42,034 nt of DNA from Acidimicrobiales bacterium (lineage in GTDB: Bacteria > Actinomycetota > Acidimicrobiia > Acidimicrobiales > JAVJTC01). Below the pieces are notes generated by a model. The model was given only the letters and a program-made list of their open reading frames with translations, was not told where the DNA came from and did no database searches. A program made the position numbers and the translations under genes. Below are positions 11,075 through 25,195 of the stretch, piece by piece (position 1 is the stretch's first letter; each line of letters begins with the position of its first letter). The DNA lies in contig JAVJTC010000045.1 of the NCBI GenBank assembly GCA_040219085.1, positions 1-42,034 of the forward strand, written 5' to 3'.

Positions 11075-13120
11075 CTAGGCGCTTCTGCGCCCGCCGAGGA
11101 GTCGGCGCTTGTGCTCGACGAAGTCCACCAGGACGTAGTCGCCGAGCGTCTCGGGGGTCGTGAAGAAGGCCCTCCCCCCGTTCATCGCCGTGATCTGTTC
11201 GATGAACCGGGTGAGGTGCGCCGTGGCGTCGAGCATGAACACGTTGATGCGGATCCCCTCGCGGGTGCACGCCGCGACCTGTCGCAGCGTGCGATCCACG
11301 GTCTCACGGACCGGCGGATAGCTGAAGAAGGGCTCTCCCCGGTCGTCGATATGTGCCGTCGGCTCACCGTCGGTGATCATGATGATCTGCTTGGTCCCGC
11401 TCTCGCGCGCCAGCATCCTGCGGGCGAGTTGGAACCCGTGCTGCATGTTCGTGCCGTACACGAAGTCCCACGAGACCTCGGGAAGGTCACGTGCCTCGAG
11501 TTCCCGGGCGACCTCGGAGAATCCGACGATGCCGAGGTAGTCACGGGGGTAGTGGCCGGTTATCAGCGCATGGAGCGCCATGGCCACCTTCTTCGCGGGC
11601 AGGAAGTTGTCCCGCATCGGCATCGACAGGGACAGGTCGAGCATGAGCACGGTCGAGGTCCGCACGAGCGACTCGGTCCGCTCGATCTCGAAGTCGTCGG
11701 GCGTCAGCGCGACCGGGGTCCCCCCACCGGTCCGGCGCACGGCGTTGCGCACCGTCACCCCGATGTCGAGGTTGAAGGGATCGCCCCACTCGTAGGGCTT
11801 GGTGGTGTGGTCGCGCTCGTGGCCGGCACCCGTGCGCTCGAGTTCATGGGTACCGATCCGGTCCCGGGACAACTTGGCGAACAGGTCGTCGAGTGCGCTC
11901 TGACCGATGCGACGGATCGCCCGCGCCGTCAGCTCCCAGCGACCCTCGCGGTTCTCGATCAGACCCGCGTCGGCGAGCATGCGGGCCAGCTCAGCGAGCT
12001 TCTCGAGGCTGTCCGCGGCGATGTCACCGACCAGCTCACGGGCCCGATCCACGTCGACCTCGGCGAGAGCGCCCGGGGACGCCGCCCCTCGCAACAGATT
12101 CTCGAGCTGGTCGAGATCGCCGAGCTCGGACATCATCTGCTGCGCCGAGCCGAAGTCCAGCGGGTCCGTCCCCGTGAACTCCTGGGACCGCTCCCAGCCG
12201 GCATCGGGGAAAATCGAGCGCAGGTTCTCGCCGAGCTGGTCGACCTGCCAGCGCAGATCGAGGTCCTCGAGCAGCTGATCGGACAACTCCTGGAGCTGGG
12301 CCCGCTGCTCGGGCGTCATGGAGTTCAGCATCTGCTGGGCGGCCGCCATCCGGCGCGCCAGGGCCTCGAGGAGCTCGTCGAGGTCGCGGGGGTTCTCCGG
12401 GAACATGTCGCCGTAGCGGTCCATGAAGCCCTCGAAGTCGGGCTCCTCCCCCCGCCGGCGCTGGTCGAGCATCGCGTTGAGGTCGGCGAGCATGTCCTTC
12501 ATGCGCGCCAGCTCCTGGGGCGAGGTGTTCGCGATCGACTCCCCCATCTGATCGACCACGTTCTGCATCAGCTGCTCGCGCAGCCGGTCCATGAGTGTCT
12601 CGAACTTCTCGGCGGCCTCAGCCGACGTGAAGTCGTAGTCCGACAGGCTTCGCACCTGGCCGGCCAGGTCCGGTGGCAGCAGGTCCAGTTCCATGCGGCG
12701 CTCGGAAACAGCGGTGTCGGTCTCCTCGCGACGCCGCCGGTCGGCCATCTCGGCGGCCTCCGCGGCAAGCTCGTCGAGCGAGGCCCTCTCGGTGTCGACG
12801 ACCTCGCGCAACTCCGAGGCGATGTCGTCGTAGACCCCACCGAGGTCGTGGTTCTCGAGCCGCTCGCGCCGGGCCTCGCGGATGCGCTCCATGATCTCGC
12901 GGAGCCCCTCGACCCGACCGTCGTCGGTGTCGAAGCCGCCCTGGAGCATGCGACGCAGCGCGGCATCGGGGTCCCCGTGGTACATGAGGTCGTCGGTCAT
13001 CTCCGCGAAGACGTCGGCCGCCCCCACGTCGAACCCGGTCTGTGTCCCGTCCCAGCGCGAATAGCGGATCGCATTGGACGCGGAACGGCGCCGGCGGCGG
13101 GAGAACCGACGCAGGCCCAC
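11075..13120 (-). CDS. VWA-domain protein, partner of a MoxR-type ATPase
   Basis: 681 residues. The first 460 are largely charged, helical and coiled-coil-like (DEVA-type repeats of Glu, Arg and Leu, such as LAEAAEM and DELLEALARRMAAAQQM). The C-terminal 485-670 is a von Willebrand A domain with a complete metal-ion-dependent adhesion site, DLSLS (Asp495, Ser497, Ser499), followed by GTNMQHG and MITDGEPTAH. No signal peptide. The GTG at 13120 comes 4 nt after the MoxR stop, so the pair is cotranscribed and probably coupled. MoxR/VWA pairs act as chaperone-like machines resembling Mg-chelatase I and D, inserting cofactors or remodelling proteins. The target here is unknown. Confidence 0.85.
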   Translation of the reverse strand: MGLRRFSRRRRRSASNAIRYSRWDGTQTGFDVGAADVFAEMTDDLMYHGDPDAALRRMLQGGFDTDDGRVEGLREIMERIREARRERLENHDLGGVYDDIASELREVVDTERASLDELAAEAAEMADRRRREETDTAVSERRMELDLLPPDLAGQVRSLSDYDFTSAEAAEKFETLMDRLREQLMQNVVDQMGESIANTSPQELARMKDMLADLNAMLDQRRRGEEPDFEGFMDRYGDMFPENPRDLDELLEALARRMAAAQQMLNSMTPEQRAQLQELSDQLLEDLDLRWQVDQLGENLRSIFPDAGWERSQEFTGTDPLDFGSAQQMMSELGDLDQLENLLRGAASPGALAEVDVDRARELVGDIAADSLEKLAELARMLADAGLIENREGRWELTARAIRRIGQSALDDLFAKLSRDRIGTHELERTGAGHERDHTTKPYEWGDPFNLDIGVTVRNAVRRTGGGTPVALTPDDFEIERTESLVRTSTVLMLDLSLSMPMRDNFLPAKKVAMALHALITGHYPRDYLGIVGFSEVARELEARDLPEVSWDFVYGTNMQHGFQLARRMLARESGTKQIIMITDGEPTAHIDDRGEPFFSYPPVRETVDRTLRQVAACTREGIRINVFMLDATAHLTRFIEQITAMNGGRAFFTTPETLGDYVLVDFVEHKRRLLGGRRSA

Positions 13121-19733: not shown

Positions 19734-20510
19734 ATGTCAACCGAGCTTTCCCTCACCCTCAAGATCTGGCGCCAGAACGGGCCGGACGACCCGGGTCGGT
19801 TCACGACCCACGACATCTCCGGCGTCCCCGACGACGCATCGTTCCTGGAGATGCTCGACCTGTTGAACGAGAACCTCCAGGACGCCGGCGACGAGCCCGT
19901 CGTCTTCGAGTCCGACTGCCGCGAGGGCATCTGTGGCACATGCGGGCTGATGATCAACGGACGCGCGCACGGCCCCCAGAAGGGCACCGCGACGTGCCAG
20001 TTGCACATGCGGAAGTTCTCCGACGGCGACACGATCACGATCGAGCCGTGGCGGGCCGCCGCCTTCCCGGTGATCCGGGACCTCGCGGTGGATCGTTCGC
20101 CCCTCGACGAGATCATCAAGTCCGGCGGCTACATCACGGTCAACACCGGCGGTGCGCCTGACGCGAATCTCATCCCCGTCCCGAAGGAGGCTGCTGACTC
20201 GGCATTCGACGCAGCGGCGTGTATCGGCTGCGGAGCCTGCGTCGCCGCGTGTCCGAACAGCGCCGCCCAGTTGTTCACCGCGGCGAAGGTCGAGCACCTC
20301 AACCTGTTGCCCCAGGGCCAGGCGCAGCGTTGGCAACGGACCCAGGCGATGGTGGACACGATGGAGGAGTTCTTCGGCTCCTGCACGAACCACGGGGAGT
20401 GCGAGGAGGCCTGTCCGAAGGAGATCTCGCTCGACTTCATCGCCTACATGAACCGTGACTACGTGAAGGCGACCTTCAAGAACCGTCGTCTGACCGGTCA
20501 GAAGAACTGA
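19734..20510 (+). CDS. sdhB: Succinate dehydrogenase iron-sulfur subunit
   Basis: Electron-transfer subunit of complex II, 258 residues. The [2Fe-2S] site uses Cys62, Cys67, Cys70 (CREGICGTC) and Cys88. The ferredoxin-type clusters use [12 protein letters not shown] (Cys163, 166, 169, 173) and [13 protein letters not shown] (Cys217, 223, 227), giving the [4Fe-4S] and [3Fe-4S] centres. The last 35 nt overlap the end of the convergent alpha/beta hydrolase gene, so no terminator lies between them. Confidence 0.97.
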
Positions 20511-21393
20511 CACCGGGCTCGGCGCCACCGACCGGCTCGGCATCGGCGAGATGCGCCGTCAACGTCGGTAGAAGGTCCCCGACGAGACCGTCGGGGACCT
20601 CGTGCCCCAGCCCCTCGACGATCTCCAGCGACGCATGGGGGACCGCGTCGACGAACGCCTCGGGGTGGTCGGCCCCGAACAGGGGGTCCTCTGTGCCGTG
20701 GACCACGAGGGCCGGACACGTCAGCCGTCCGAGTCGGTCGAACCACGCCGGCGTCGTGAGCACTGCGTTCAGATGCCCGGACTCGAGTGTCCAGCTCTCG
20801 ACGATCGACGTGACTGCGTCGCGGCGTAGGAAGTCCTCATCGAAGTCGTAGCGCGTACCGGTCAACAGGCGGGCACCCGCCAGGATCCGCTCGACCCGTT
20901 CAGCGTCGTCAACGGGGGGCGGAGCGAAGATCATCTCCCCCGCTGCTTCCATGTACCGGTCCGACGGGGCCGACAGCGCACCGCTGACCGGGTCCGGAGA
21001 GGAGATCAGCACCGTCAACGACACGACCCGCTCACCGTGGTCGATGGCGAGAAGTTGACCGATCATCGCACCCATCGAGGAACCGACCACATGCGCAGCC
21101 GTGATCGAGAGCGCGTCCAGGACCGCGACGGCGTCCGCGGTGAGGCGGTGCAGGTCATAGGGGACTCCCGACGCGCCGCTACGGCCGATGTCGCGGTGGT
21201 CGTAGCGGATCACCGTGTGCCCGGCCGCGCCGAGGCCGTCGACCAGGCGTGGTCGCCAACGACTCGCGGGCGAGTCGGCCCCCGAGACGAGCAGCACCGG
21301 TTGCCGCGACGAGCCCGACCGGTGCGTGACCTCGACATGCAGGTCGACGTCATCGACGGCGACGGTCAGTCGCTGGTGTCCCGGGCCGGTCAT
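20476..21393 (-). CDS. Alpha/beta hydrolase
   Basis: 305-residue alpha/beta-hydrolase-fold enzyme. The nucleophile elbow is GSSMGAMIG (Ser106), the acid probably Asp in [11 protein letters not shown], and the His in [10 protein letters not shown]. The oxyanion region is [14 protein letters not shown], followed by [13 protein letters not shown], a form common in the esterase/peroxidase-like branch. There is a disordered Ser/Asp tail. TATCGT seven nt before ATG 21393 suggests a leaderless message. The substrate is unknown. Confidence 0.85.
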
Positions 21394-21400
21394 GGTGGCG

Positions 21401-21410
21401 ACGATACGCT
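21401..21410. promoter_or_regulatory. Overlapping divergent -10 boxes (hydrolase and DUF368 genes)
   Basis: On the minus strand TATCGT (21406-21401) serves the hydrolase start at 21393. On the plus strand TACGCT (21405-21410) lies 9 nt before GTG 21420. The two boxes share two base pairs. Confidence 0.45.
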
Positions 21411-21419
21411 CCGTCGACA

Positions 21420-22346
21420 GTGAGGCGAGACATCCCTGTGGCGACGTTGGCGGGCAACGCCCTACGTGGGTTCCTCATGGGCGCGGCCGACATCGTCCCT
21501 GGCGTGTCCGGCGGCACCGTGGCGCTGGTCCTGGGCATCTACGAGCGCCTGGTCGAATCCGTCCGGCGGGCAGCCTCTGCTGCGGGGCGCCTTCTCAGAG
21601 GCCGCCCGGCACAGGCGCGCCAGGACCTTTCGGCGGTCGAGTGGAGCCTCGTCGTTCCACTGCTGGTGGGGATCCTCGTCGCGATCGGCGCGCTGTCGGC
21701 GCTCATCGACCACCTCCTCGAGGAGGAGGCGGAGGTCATGGCCGGCCTGTTCCTCGGTCTCGTGGCGGCCTCGGTGGTGGTCGCCGCGCGGATGGTCCGA
21801 CGGTGGACGGGCGTGGAAGCCGCTCTCGCCACGACGGTCGCGCTGGCCACCTTCGCGTTGCTCGGCCTGTCGAACGGCCCGGTCGCCGATCCGAGCGTCA
21901 TCCAGTTCACCGGGGCCGGCGCGATCGCCATCTGCGCCATGATCCTGCCGGGGATCTCCGGGTCGTTCCTGTTGTTGATGCTCGGGATGTACGCGCCGGT
22001 GCTCGCGGCGGTCAACGAGCGCGCGGTGGCCGACCTGATCGTGTTCGCGGCAGGAGCCGCCGTGGGCCTCTCACTGTTCTCCACGGTCCTCGGCAGAGCT
22101 CTCGACCGGTGGCGCAACCCGCTGCTGGCGGCGCTGATCGGACTGATGGCCGGATCACTGCGGGTCCTGTGGCCGTGGCCGAACGGTGTCGGGATCATCG
22201 CCGAAGACGCTGCAGACGTGGTCGACGGCACGGGCCTCGACTGGCCCGCCACCGCAGACCTGCCGGGACCGACGATTGCGGCGATCCTCGGATTCATCGC
22301 GGTCATGGCGGGGACCGCTCTCGGGAACCGGGACAAGGGGAGCTGA
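21420..22346 (+). CDS. popT: DUF368 membrane protein, PopT-type polyprenyl-phosphate transporter
   Basis: 308 residues, about eight membrane helices. The two inverted family signatures are both present: ADIVPGVSGGTVALVLGIYE near the start and MILPGISGSFLLLMLGMY in the middle. DUF368 proteins (PopT) were shown to recycle undecaprenyl phosphate, the lipid carrier of cell-wall synthesis, across the membrane. The start is GTG 21420. It is divergent from the alpha/beta hydrolase, with only 26 nt between starts. Family assignment is strong; the function is transferred from characterised members. Confidence 0.9.
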   Translation: MRRDIPVATLAGNALRGFLMGAADIVPGVSGGTVALVLGIYERLVESVRRAASAAGRLLRGRPAQARQDLSAVEWSLVVPLLVGILVAIGALSALIDHLLEEEAEVMAGLFLGLVAASVVVAARMVRRWTGVEAALATTVALATFALLGLSNGPVADPSVIQFTGAGAIAICAMILPGISGSFLLLMLGMYAPVLAAVNERAVADLIVFAAGAAVGLSLFSTVLGRALDRWRNPLLAALIGLMAGSLRVLWPWPNGVGIIAEDAADVVDGTGLDWPATADLPGPTIAAILGFIAVMAGTALGNRDKGS

Positions 22347-22444
22347 GGTTCAGGAAAGGCCAAGGTGTCACGGTCATCGCGCGGCCTCACCACAGCCGGT
22401 GTGGGTGCGCCGGGTCGAAACGGCGAAGCAACGGAGATGCGTCG

Positions 22445-22564
22445 ATGTCGAGGTTCCTGAAGCTGGCGGTTGCGCTGCTCGTGATGGCGGTGGCATTTCC
22501 CACGGCGGCCGGCGCCGCCCCGGGGTCCAACCACAGCGGCGCCAGCTCGCCCAAGGTCTTCTAG
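22445..22564 (+). CDS. Putative 39-residue secreted peptide
   Basis: A short frame starting MSRFLKLAVALLVMAV with a textbook Sec signal peptide: basic start, hydrophobic core and a small-residue cleavage site after PTAAGA. It would release a mature peptide of about 16 residues (APGSNHSGASSPKVF). GGAG lies about 8 nt upstream. The stop overlaps the end of the convergent gene by 4 nt. I know no family. It might be a degraded exported protein cut short by its stop; conservation would decide. The 98 nt between popT and this frame hold nothing I recognise. Confidence 0.5.
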   Translation: MSRFLKLAVALLVMAVAFPTAAGAAPGSNHSGASSPKVF

Positions 22565-23133
22565 GGCGTCGCAGTTCCGGGCTCCGGCCCGGCGGCGGAC
22601 CCCCACATATGGGACCGGGCCCCCTTGCCGGTCACCTCGACGGCGCCATCGGCGACGAGGACCTCCCCGTGGACCCGACACGGGATCGCGTAGCCGCCGA
22701 CGATGGTTCCGGGCGGCGCCGAGGTCTCCCACTCGAGGTCGAGGCCCAGCGGCGTGCGATCACCCCGCACGTCCGGGCCGACATCGGCACCTTCACCGAC
22801 GGCCACACCGAACGCCTCGAGCCCCAGTGTCACGTGCGCGAGGGGTGTCTCGACCACGAGGTCGACCCACAGCGCCGGGGCCCGAAGCTCGAAACGCCCC
22901 TTCGACGCCGCCGGAAGGTCGTCATCGACGACCACGACGAGCGGGAACCCGGCGCGGGTGAGACGCACGTCGATCGCCCCCCGACCCTGCGCGTCCGCGA
23001 CGATCCAGTCGATGGAGACACCCGTCCGCTCGTCGTCCGACGTCGCCGACAGGGCGATCCGCTCGGACCATCGCGGCGATCCGTCCGCAACGTGGCGATG
23101 TTCGTCGTGCGGAGAGGGTGAGTTTCGTGTCAC
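22561..23133 (-). CDS. Lipocalin-like protein of unknown function
   Basis: 190 residues, mostly beta-rich (FPLVVVVDDDLPAASKGRFE, LWVDLVVETPLAHVTLGLEA). The C-terminal motif VEVTGKGARSHMWG resembles the GxGxRDHSWG signature of hydroxyneurosporene-dehydratase/AttH-like lipocalin folds, so I suggest that fold with caution. There is no signal peptide. The start is GTG 23133, six nt after TACCCT, so the message may be leaderless. It is divergent from sodA. The middle contains RTPLGLDLEWET, also seen in this fold class. Function unknown. Confidence 0.65.
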   Translation of the reverse strand: MTRNSPSPHDEHRHVADGSPRWSERIALSATSDDERTGVSIDWIVADAQGRGAIDVRLTRAGFPLVVVVDDDLPAASKGRFELRAPALWVDLVVETPLAHVTLGLEAFGVAVGEGADVGPDVRGDRTPLGLDLEWETSAPPGTIVGGYAIPCRVHGEVLVADGAVEVTGKGARSHMWGSAAGPEPGTATP

Positions 23134-23138
23134 ATGAC

Positions 23139-23145
23139 TAGGGTA
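23139..23145. promoter_or_regulatory. Symmetric bidirectional -10 element between the lipocalin-like gene and sodA
   Basis: TAGGGTA reads TAGGGT on the plus strand (sodA, with a leader of about 40 nt) and TACCCT on the minus strand (6 nt before GTG 23133). Both fit TANNNT. A small inverted repeat, TCGGT/ACCGA, lies just downstream in the sodA leader. Confidence 0.5.
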
Positions 23146-23186
23146 AGAATCGGTCCAAGGAAGAACCGACCCCGAGGAGTCCCGCT

Positions 23187-23765
23187 GTGGCCATTGAACT
23201 TCCCCCGCTTCCGTTCGCCGAGGACGCTCTTGCGCCCCACATGTCGGCCGAGACGCTCAGCTTCCACTACGGCAAGCACCACGCCGGCTATGTGAACAAG
23301 CTGAACGCCGCCATCGAGGGGACACCCGACGCCGACAAGAGCCTGGAGGACATCGTCACCAGCGCCTCGGGTGGTGTGTTCAACAACGCCGCTCAGATCT
23401 GGAACCACACCTTCTTCTGGAACTCGATGAGCCCGGACGGCGGCGGCGACCCCTCCGGCGCTCTCAAGGACGCCATCGAGGCGTCGTTCGGCTCCGTCGA
23501 CGAGTTCAAGACCAAGTTCGCCTCTGCGGCCGGCACTCTCTTCGGTTCGGGCTGGACCTGGCTCGTGAGCGGTGACAGCGGCCTCGAGATCGTCCAGACC
23601 AAGGACGCCGACACGCCTCTCGCGCACGGCAAGACCGCCCTGCTGACCATCGACGTCTGGGAGCACGCGTACTACCTGGACTTCCAGAACGCCCGCCCGG
23701 CGTACATCGAGACGTGGCTCGAGAACCTCGTCAACTGGGAGCACGCGGCAGCCAACCTCGGCTGA
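23187..23765 (+). CDS. sodA: Superoxide dismutase, Fe (or Fe/Mn) type
   Basis: Cytoplasmic enzyme converting superoxide to peroxide and oxygen; 192 residues. Metal ligands are His27 (FHYGKHHAGYV), His74 (IWNHTFFW), Asp156 and His160 (DVWEHAYYLDFQNARPAYI). AAQIWNHTFFW and LFGSGWTWLV are the Fe-type forms, so iron is the more likely metal. GTG 23187 has GAGGAG seven nt upstream. It is followed after 3 nt by an SCP2-like gene, which should be in the same transcript. Confidence 0.97.
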   Translation: MAIELPPLPFAEDALAPHMSAETLSFHYGKHHAGYVNKLNAAIEGTPDADKSLEDIVTSASGGVFNNAAQIWNHTFFWNSMSPDGGGDPSGALKDAIEASFGSVDEFKTKFASAAGTLFGSGWTWLVSGDSGLEIVQTKDADTPLAHGKTALLTIDVWEHAYYLDFQNARPAYIETWLENLVNWEHAAANLG

Positions 23766-23768
23766 GAC

Positions 23769-24155
23769 GTGCCTGCTCTCGCCAGCCCGGAGTGGGTCGA
23801 CGCGATCGACGGCGCACTCCGGGCTGTTGCGCGTCCACAGGGCGCATCGACCGGGTTCGTCGTCGAGTACAGGATGGTCGACCGCGACGGCTCGGCCGTG
23901 AGCTACCACGTCCGTGCGGACGCGGCCGGATACCGCGCGTCGGCCGGAACAACGACCGCGACGACCGCGACGGTGACGATGGACCGTTCCGTGGCCCTCG
24001 GCCTCATCAGAGGTGAACGCGAGGCCCACCAGGAGATGCTGATGGGCACGATCGCCGTCGACGGAGACACGATCGCACTCGTCGAGGCCCAAGCCGACAT
24101 CGCGGTGATCCAGGCGGCCATCGCGGCGGTGCCGGTCGACGCCGACGAGAACTGA
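23769..24155 (+). CDS. Small SCP2 sterol-carrier-like protein
   Basis: 128 residues from GTG 23769. It begins with SPEWVDAIDGALRAV, then alternating strands (FVVEYRMVDRDGSAVSYHV, TTATVTMDRSVALGLI) and a helix (GEREAHQEMLMGTI), the plan of SCP2-like domains that bind lipids. No membrane helix or signal peptide. It follows sodA by 3 nt and ends before a strong terminator. The assignment rests on pattern rather than a diagnostic motif; it could also be a plain conserved hypothetical protein. Confidence 0.65.
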   Translation: MPALASPEWVDAIDGALRAVARPQGASTGFVVEYRMVDRDGSAVSYHVRADAAGYRASAGTTTATTATVTMDRSVALGLIRGEREAHQEMLMGTIAVDGDTIALVEAQADIAVIQAAIAAVPVDADEN

Positions 24156-24157
24156 AA

Positions 24158-24183
24158 GGGGCCGGGCCACCCGGCCCGGCCCC
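24158..24183. terminator. Strong bidirectional terminator between sodA operon and mdh
   Basis: GGGGCCGGGC-CACCCG-GCCCGGCCCC, a perfect 10-bp stem with a 6-nt loop, preceded by AAA and lying between convergent genes. Confidence 0.85.
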
Positions 24184-24205
24184 TGACGAAATCGGCTCGA
24201 CCGGA

Positions 24206-25195
<990 letters not shown>

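Follow-up and report, generated by a model that had tools for sequence, protein, structure and literature searches.

The best-supported reading of the 53-nt gap that separates two divergent genes at positions 23134-23186 of the window (the whole 42,034-nt stretch of Acidimicrobiales DNA analysed here) is that its heptamer TAGGGTA, at 23139-23145, acts as a single -10 element working in both orientations, towards a superoxide dismutase gene (sodA) on the plus strand and towards a DUF7065-type gene on the minus strand. Judging from sequence analysis, we put the probability of this reading at about two in three. The gap is the exact interval between the GTG start codon at 23133 (minus strand) and that at 23187 (plus strand). 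Read forward, the heptamer gives TAGGGT (23139..23144, plus strand), 42 nt before the GTG of sodA; read in reverse, it gives TACCCT (23140..23145, minus strand), 6 nt before the GTG of the other gene. That TANNNTA can be read as TANNNT on either strand, as proposed in the preliminary description of this region, is confirmed by the sequence. The accompanying term "self-complementary" is a loose one, since the reverse complement is TACCCTA, in which the T and A positions (T1, A2, T6 and A7) are mirrored and the GGG core is not.

Leaderless genes and the TANNNT hexamer

Genes in the genome to which the window belongs were called with a simple codon model of our own. When codon usage alone decided the starts, 41 of 355 genes had a TANNNT hexamer 6-8 nt ahead of the start codon (20, 14 and 7 at 6, 7 and 8 nt, respectively), and any other offset between 0 and 54 held at most three. 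After refinement of the starts, 179 of 1009 genes in 1.166 Mb are classed as leaderless, 81 with a spacing of 6 nt, 60 with 7 nt and 38 with 8 nt; because this refinement rewards the TANNNT motif, the codon-only count is to be taken as the unbiased figure. The hexamer occurs at a rate of 0.00053 per position in the whole genome and of 0.0016 in intergenic DNA (leaderless sites excluded), and by our arithmetic the chance of encountering it at the three leaderless offsets is about 0.2-0.5%. The spacing of 6 nt seen in the minus-strand gene is the modal leaderless spacing of the genome (81/179). In the part of the genome that was sampled, no leaderless hexamer is as common as TAGGGT (16/179), and TACCCT is used in 3 of the 179, the sodA-gap site counted.

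The minus-strand gene has the further attributes of a leaderless gene in this leaderless-rich genome: no Shine-Dalgarno match precedes the GTG at 23133, and the protein has no other in-frame start ahead of its conserved region, the first invariant residues of which are E11 and H14. A comparable arrangement recurs among its homologues. In 12 of the 48 alignments that reach the N-terminus, drawn from 62 distinct loci (the window's own excluded), TANNNT lies 6-8 nt before the equivalent start, and three of these hexamers are TACCCT. The remaining 36 lack a leaderless hexamer at that position, and several carry a Shine-Dalgarno sequence instead; hence, predicted leaderless expression is frequent but not general among the homologues.

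On the opposite strand, the start of sodA is preceded by GAGGAG (23174..23179, 7 nt before the start; AGGAG is also recognised), and the position of the forward hexamer predicts transcription to begin near 23149-23152, yielding a leader of about 35-38 nt (23149..23186 at its longest). No other plus-strand TANNNT occurs in the 90 nt that precede sodA, and the location of the forward TAGGGT is a recurrent one: TANNNT is found 30-50 nt upstream of 65 of the 506 Shine-Dalgarno genes of the genome, against about 3.4% expected by chance (our arithmetic, from the intergenic rate), and in 8 of 24 distinct superoxide dismutase homologues, seven of these eight hexamers being TAGNNT and one TAGGGT. The other 16 homologues lack TANNNT at this distance, and therefore the forward element is likely, though less certain than the reverse one. 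Genome statistics and homologues thus lend good support to the earlier notion that one start is (as predicted) leaderless and the other has a leader with GAGGAG, and both TAGGGT and TACCCT look like real -10 elements on sequence grounds.

A scan of positions 22300-24200 with the sigma-70 consensus returned no -35/-10 pair. This is not strong counter-evidence, because the leaderless promoters of the genome show no -35 signal, none being seen when the 81 cases with spacing 6 are aligned. The predicted sodA leader was also considered as an RNA element, a candidate that was dropped when the fold of 23149-23200 proved no more stable than shuffled sequences (z +0.88).

Symmetry of the element and divergent gene pairs

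A separate question is whether the symmetry of the heptamer has been selected. There is about an even chance that it was not, the two genes having simply been juxtaposed head to head and A at 23145 having arisen by a single substitution; such an origin would not preclude a working bidirectional promoter, and its odds are therefore not additive with those of the other readings. The homologous loci speak in its favour. The base following the hexamer is G or C, never A, in all 12 leaderless-type hexamers of the minus-strand family and in all eight of the superoxide dismutase family. Moreover, among 94 loci compared (L001-L094, some of them duplicates, with flanks of at most 3 kb), both genes occur together only at the window's own two (L001 and L031) and at none of the other 92; homologues of the minus-strand gene are present in 162 genomes, pairing having been judged only at the fetched loci. 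A same-family search for relatives returned the window's own genome only, and the shared element is found in one genome. A DNA match of 79% over a short stretch was seen at G000:C29.

The base after the hexamer is informative more generally. Over eight genomes of the order, A follows the leaderless hexamer in 9 of 297 cases, about 22 being expected; this under-use comes mainly from the window's genome (5/179; binomial 0.0045, the reference being how often A follows T in intergenic DNA), with no significance in any of the seven remaining genomes taken singly, and held-out stretches gave 1/59. Most leaderless promoters of the sample are therefore asymmetric at that base, perhaps because divergent transcription is avoided or because the discriminator favours other bases.

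Against an unselected origin stands a mild enrichment of TANNNTA between close divergent genes. In a pooled sample of eight genomes, held-out stretches included, a divergent pair was counted if it had a leaderless member and its starts were separated by 10-150 nt. TANNNTA is present in 6 of 98 such pairs, as against 3 of the 231 leaderless genes that have no partner of this kind (Fisher 0.023). Without the sodA site the figures become 5/97 and 3/231 (p = 0.052), and in the window's genome alone the enrichment is not significant (0.26; 0.48 minus the sodA site). A second geometry, ANNNTANNNT, in which two hexamers share TA, is commoner than TANNNTA at close divergent pairs of the same sample (14/98 versus 8/231; 0.0007). 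Both geometries were selected after the data had been seen, from 53 offsets scanned, and a pre-set test on 20 held-out stretches was too small to confirm either of them (TANNNTA in 0/20 versus 1/39 leaderless genes; ANNNTANNNT in 1/20 versus 0/39). The wider count hints at which overlap geometries are in use in this lineage.

Several individual sites illustrate these arrangements. TANNNTA is rare, with 37 sites in 1.166 Mb of the genome, and one of the other 36, TAGGCTA at L108:12262 (12224-12274, window's genome), has the same anatomy as the sodA site, the leaderless gene lying 6 nt away and the Shine-Dalgarno gene, in the opposite direction, 38 nt away. Within the window, ACGATACGCT, which comprises two -10 hexamers on opposite strands with their central TA in common, is situated at 21401-21410 between the starts of a second close divergent pair, formed by a minus-strand gene at 20476-21393 and a VCA0040-like plus-strand gene starting at 21420 or 21438. 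At L148:8651/8675 (window's genome; start gap 23) and L191:15808/15834 (G006; start gap 25), one ANNNTANNNT lies between two genes that are both predicted to be leaderless.

We advance only tentatively, as rather a doubtful proposition, the broader idea that in this leaderless-rich lineage one element of 7 or 10 bp (TANNNTA or ANNNTANNNT) serves a whole divergent gene pair. If it were true, the two -10 elements and two start codons of the doubly leaderless pairs may be nearly all of their regulatory DNA, one substitution could shift expression from one protein to the other, and the sodA site would represent the half-leaderless version of such a pair.

The two genes flanking the site

The product of sodA (23187..23765, plus strand, GTG start, 192 aa) is an Fe/Mn superoxide dismutase with both Pfam domains above cut-off (Sod_Fe_C, E 2.2e-37; Sod_Fe_N, E 8.3e-30). 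A second gene, at 23769..24155 on the same strand, starts 4 nt after the sodA stop and, judging by this spacing, is probably co-transcribed with it; its product weakly resembles SCP2 and alkyl-sulfatase C-terminal domains (Pfam, below cut-off). Alternative sigma factors can govern the expression of oxidative-stress genes. It is conceivable, though unlikely, that only the minus-strand gene uses the site, the forward hexamer being coincidental and sodA being transcribed from a non-TANNNT promoter, either one read by an alternative sigma factor or one located further upstream within the minus-strand gene. The 16 superoxide dismutase homologues without TANNNT at 30-50 nt would fit such a scheme, but the sequence of the forward hexamer is the one most often used as -10 by the leaderless genes sampled, and its distance recurs in the other eight homologues.

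The minus-strand gene (22561..23133, GTG start, predicted leaderless mRNA from the GTG) encodes a 190-aa single-domain relative of DUF7065-DUF7064 proteins. A contig search with this protein recovered at least 12 loci at 38-48% identity, and at 10 of these 12 the homologues, from Acidimicrobiales and other Actinomycetota MAGs, align over the first domain at 38-44% identity; their lengths of 280-350 aa rest on starts chosen by us. Two homologues were scanned against Pfam: L057 scores above the cut-offs of both DUF7065 and DUF7064, and L061 above that of DUF7064 only. The minus-strand protein itself has a DUF7065 score below cut-off, lacks DUF7064, and thus does not show the two-domain organization, stopping at the domain boundary where DUF7064 would start. 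No convincing C-terminal (DUF7064) piece was found nearby; the best candidate, at 24108-24212 (35 residues, E 6e-4), was discarded since it spans the end of another gene and the adjacent gap. No second copy of the 22561-23133 protein was detected in its own genome at E 0.001. Six other loci likewise end less than 50 residues beyond the aligned domain (L019, L021, L024, L030, L073 and L088), of which L073 runs off its contig by coordinates and L088 has an in-frame stop. A short ORF (22445-22564, 39 aa, signal-peptide-like with a short tail) has 4 nt in common with the end of the minus-strand gene.

It is quite improbable that sodA alone uses the site and that the minus-strand gene is a decaying, unexpressed remnant with a lost second domain and a relic reverse hexamer: all of DUF7064 is indeed missing and the first 55 codons score so poorly in codon usage that the codon-only choice put the start at 22968, but the frame is intact and ends at a domain boundary, the 33 domain columns invariant in 11 aligned proteins are all kept (two further ones, G182 and P183, come from a doubtful tail alignment), and the leaderless start is at the modal position.

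The gene had been called lipocalin-like, with lipid binding as a possible function. Its product matches no Pfam family above cut-off, and a literature search for DUF7065 found no publications. An AlphaFold2 model built from 11 sequences (pLDDT 77.6, pTM 0.73) is nearly all beta, and its best Foldseek matches in the PDB, AttH and 25-phosphosteroid lyase (2ich, 9fzn), have TM-scores by query of 0.51-0.57, none of the matches reaching an E-value below 0.001 (best 2e-3). The likeness to these lipocalin-like folds is one of all-beta architecture, whereas identity is 11-14% and their chains comprise 320-362 residues as opposed to 190. Hence, lipocalin-like is a reasonable label for the fold of this moderate-confidence model, and does not extend beyond the fold level; given that DUF7064 is missing, a lipid-binding role is a guess. 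The affinity with DUF7065-DUF7064 proteins (Pfam PF23213, PF23212) of Acidimicrobiales and other Actinomycetota resides in the common first domain, these proteins carrying in addition the second domain that the minus-strand protein lacks.

Relation to known bidirectional and leaderless promoters

From the positions and geometry of the hexamers, and from the statistics and homologous hexamers described above, we infer start sites, two-way activity and competition at the sodA site along the following lines. RNA polymerase with the housekeeping sigma factor would melt TAGGGTA in either orientation. In the forward direction it would use T23139, A23140 and T23144 and start near 23149-23152, producing a leadered sodA mRNA with a Shine-Dalgarno sequence. 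In reverse it would use the partners of A23145, T23144 and A23140 and start at or beside G23133, producing a leaderless mRNA for the truncated DUF7065-type protein, with a nominal separation of 18 bp between the two starts. The one-base asymmetry between the hexamers implies that A23145 should matter in reverse only, and T23139 in the forward direction only. The two genes would share promoter DNA and possibly regulators, and since only one polymerase orientation could be accommodated at a time, they may compete instead of rising together.

The work of Warman et al. (2021) is reportedly the founding paper on bacterial bidirectional promoters. That such promoters can be based on -10 symmetry, as noted in the preliminary description, is documented in the literature (PMC10268837, PMC12825309). 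In the 18-bp class, the -11A and -7T of both directions are reciprocally placed (PMC10268837), and among start separations 18 bp is described as the commonest, 10 and 23 bp being also common (PMC12825309); by its geometry, we equate ANNNTANNNT with the published 23-bp class. TAGGGTA at 23139-23145 shows the -11A/-7T reciprocity, and its divergent starts are predicted from the hexamer positions to lie about 16-19 bp apart, within a class that spans 7-25 bp and usually measures 18. The T at -18 that is commonest in the class, though not required, is replaced by C at 23133 for a start at 23151. This C, together with the under-use of A, the held-out result and the homologues without hexamers, weighs against a bidirectional reading, and the sodA site is nevertheless probably an instance of a known promoter class, tidy and ordinary.

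The proposal that TAGGGTA serves both genes therefore holds well as regards a usable -10 element in each direction, backed by statistics and homologues, and less so as regards coupled expression of the two products, which does not follow. According to published work, such promoters cannot accommodate both opposing polymerases simultaneously, and one direction can be repressed in E. coli when the other is substantially activated, the basal activity of five tested E. coli promoters being too low for competition (PMC12825309). In view of this exclusion and one-way repression, coupled expression would be just one possibility among several, and competition upon sodA induction seems as plausible.

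Among the matches listed in literature searches, no report was found that deals with bacterial bidirectional promoters in combination with leaderless genes in Actinobacteria, or with a superoxide dismutase gene sharing a bidirectional or leaderless promoter. The site is a clean candidate for studying whether, in an actinobacterial lineage rich in leaderless genes, two coding genes are driven by a bidirectional -10 element, and it also bears on the effect of one product being leaderless. On the leaderless side, it resembles the genes of Mycobacterium tuberculosis (PMC3898074) and Deinococcus (PMC12340547), with TANNNT a few bases before the start and no Shine-Dalgarno sequence. In M. tuberculosis, a TANNNT -10 without a conserved -35 has been described, 26% of the genes that have a primary start give leaderless transcripts, and closely juxtaposed divergent promoters are called common (PMC3898074), while the portions of both accounts that we consulted report no -10 element common to two coding genes. 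On the bidirectional side, the site, both directions of which lead to genes, shares with the promoters of Warman, Grainger and colleagues (PMC10268837, PMC12825309) the reciprocal -11A/-7T arrangement and the nominal 18 bp, and departs from the favoured sequence of that class by lacking -18T in one direction. As opposed to those systems, which are from Salmonella and E. coli, the sodA site has one product that is predicted to be leaderless.
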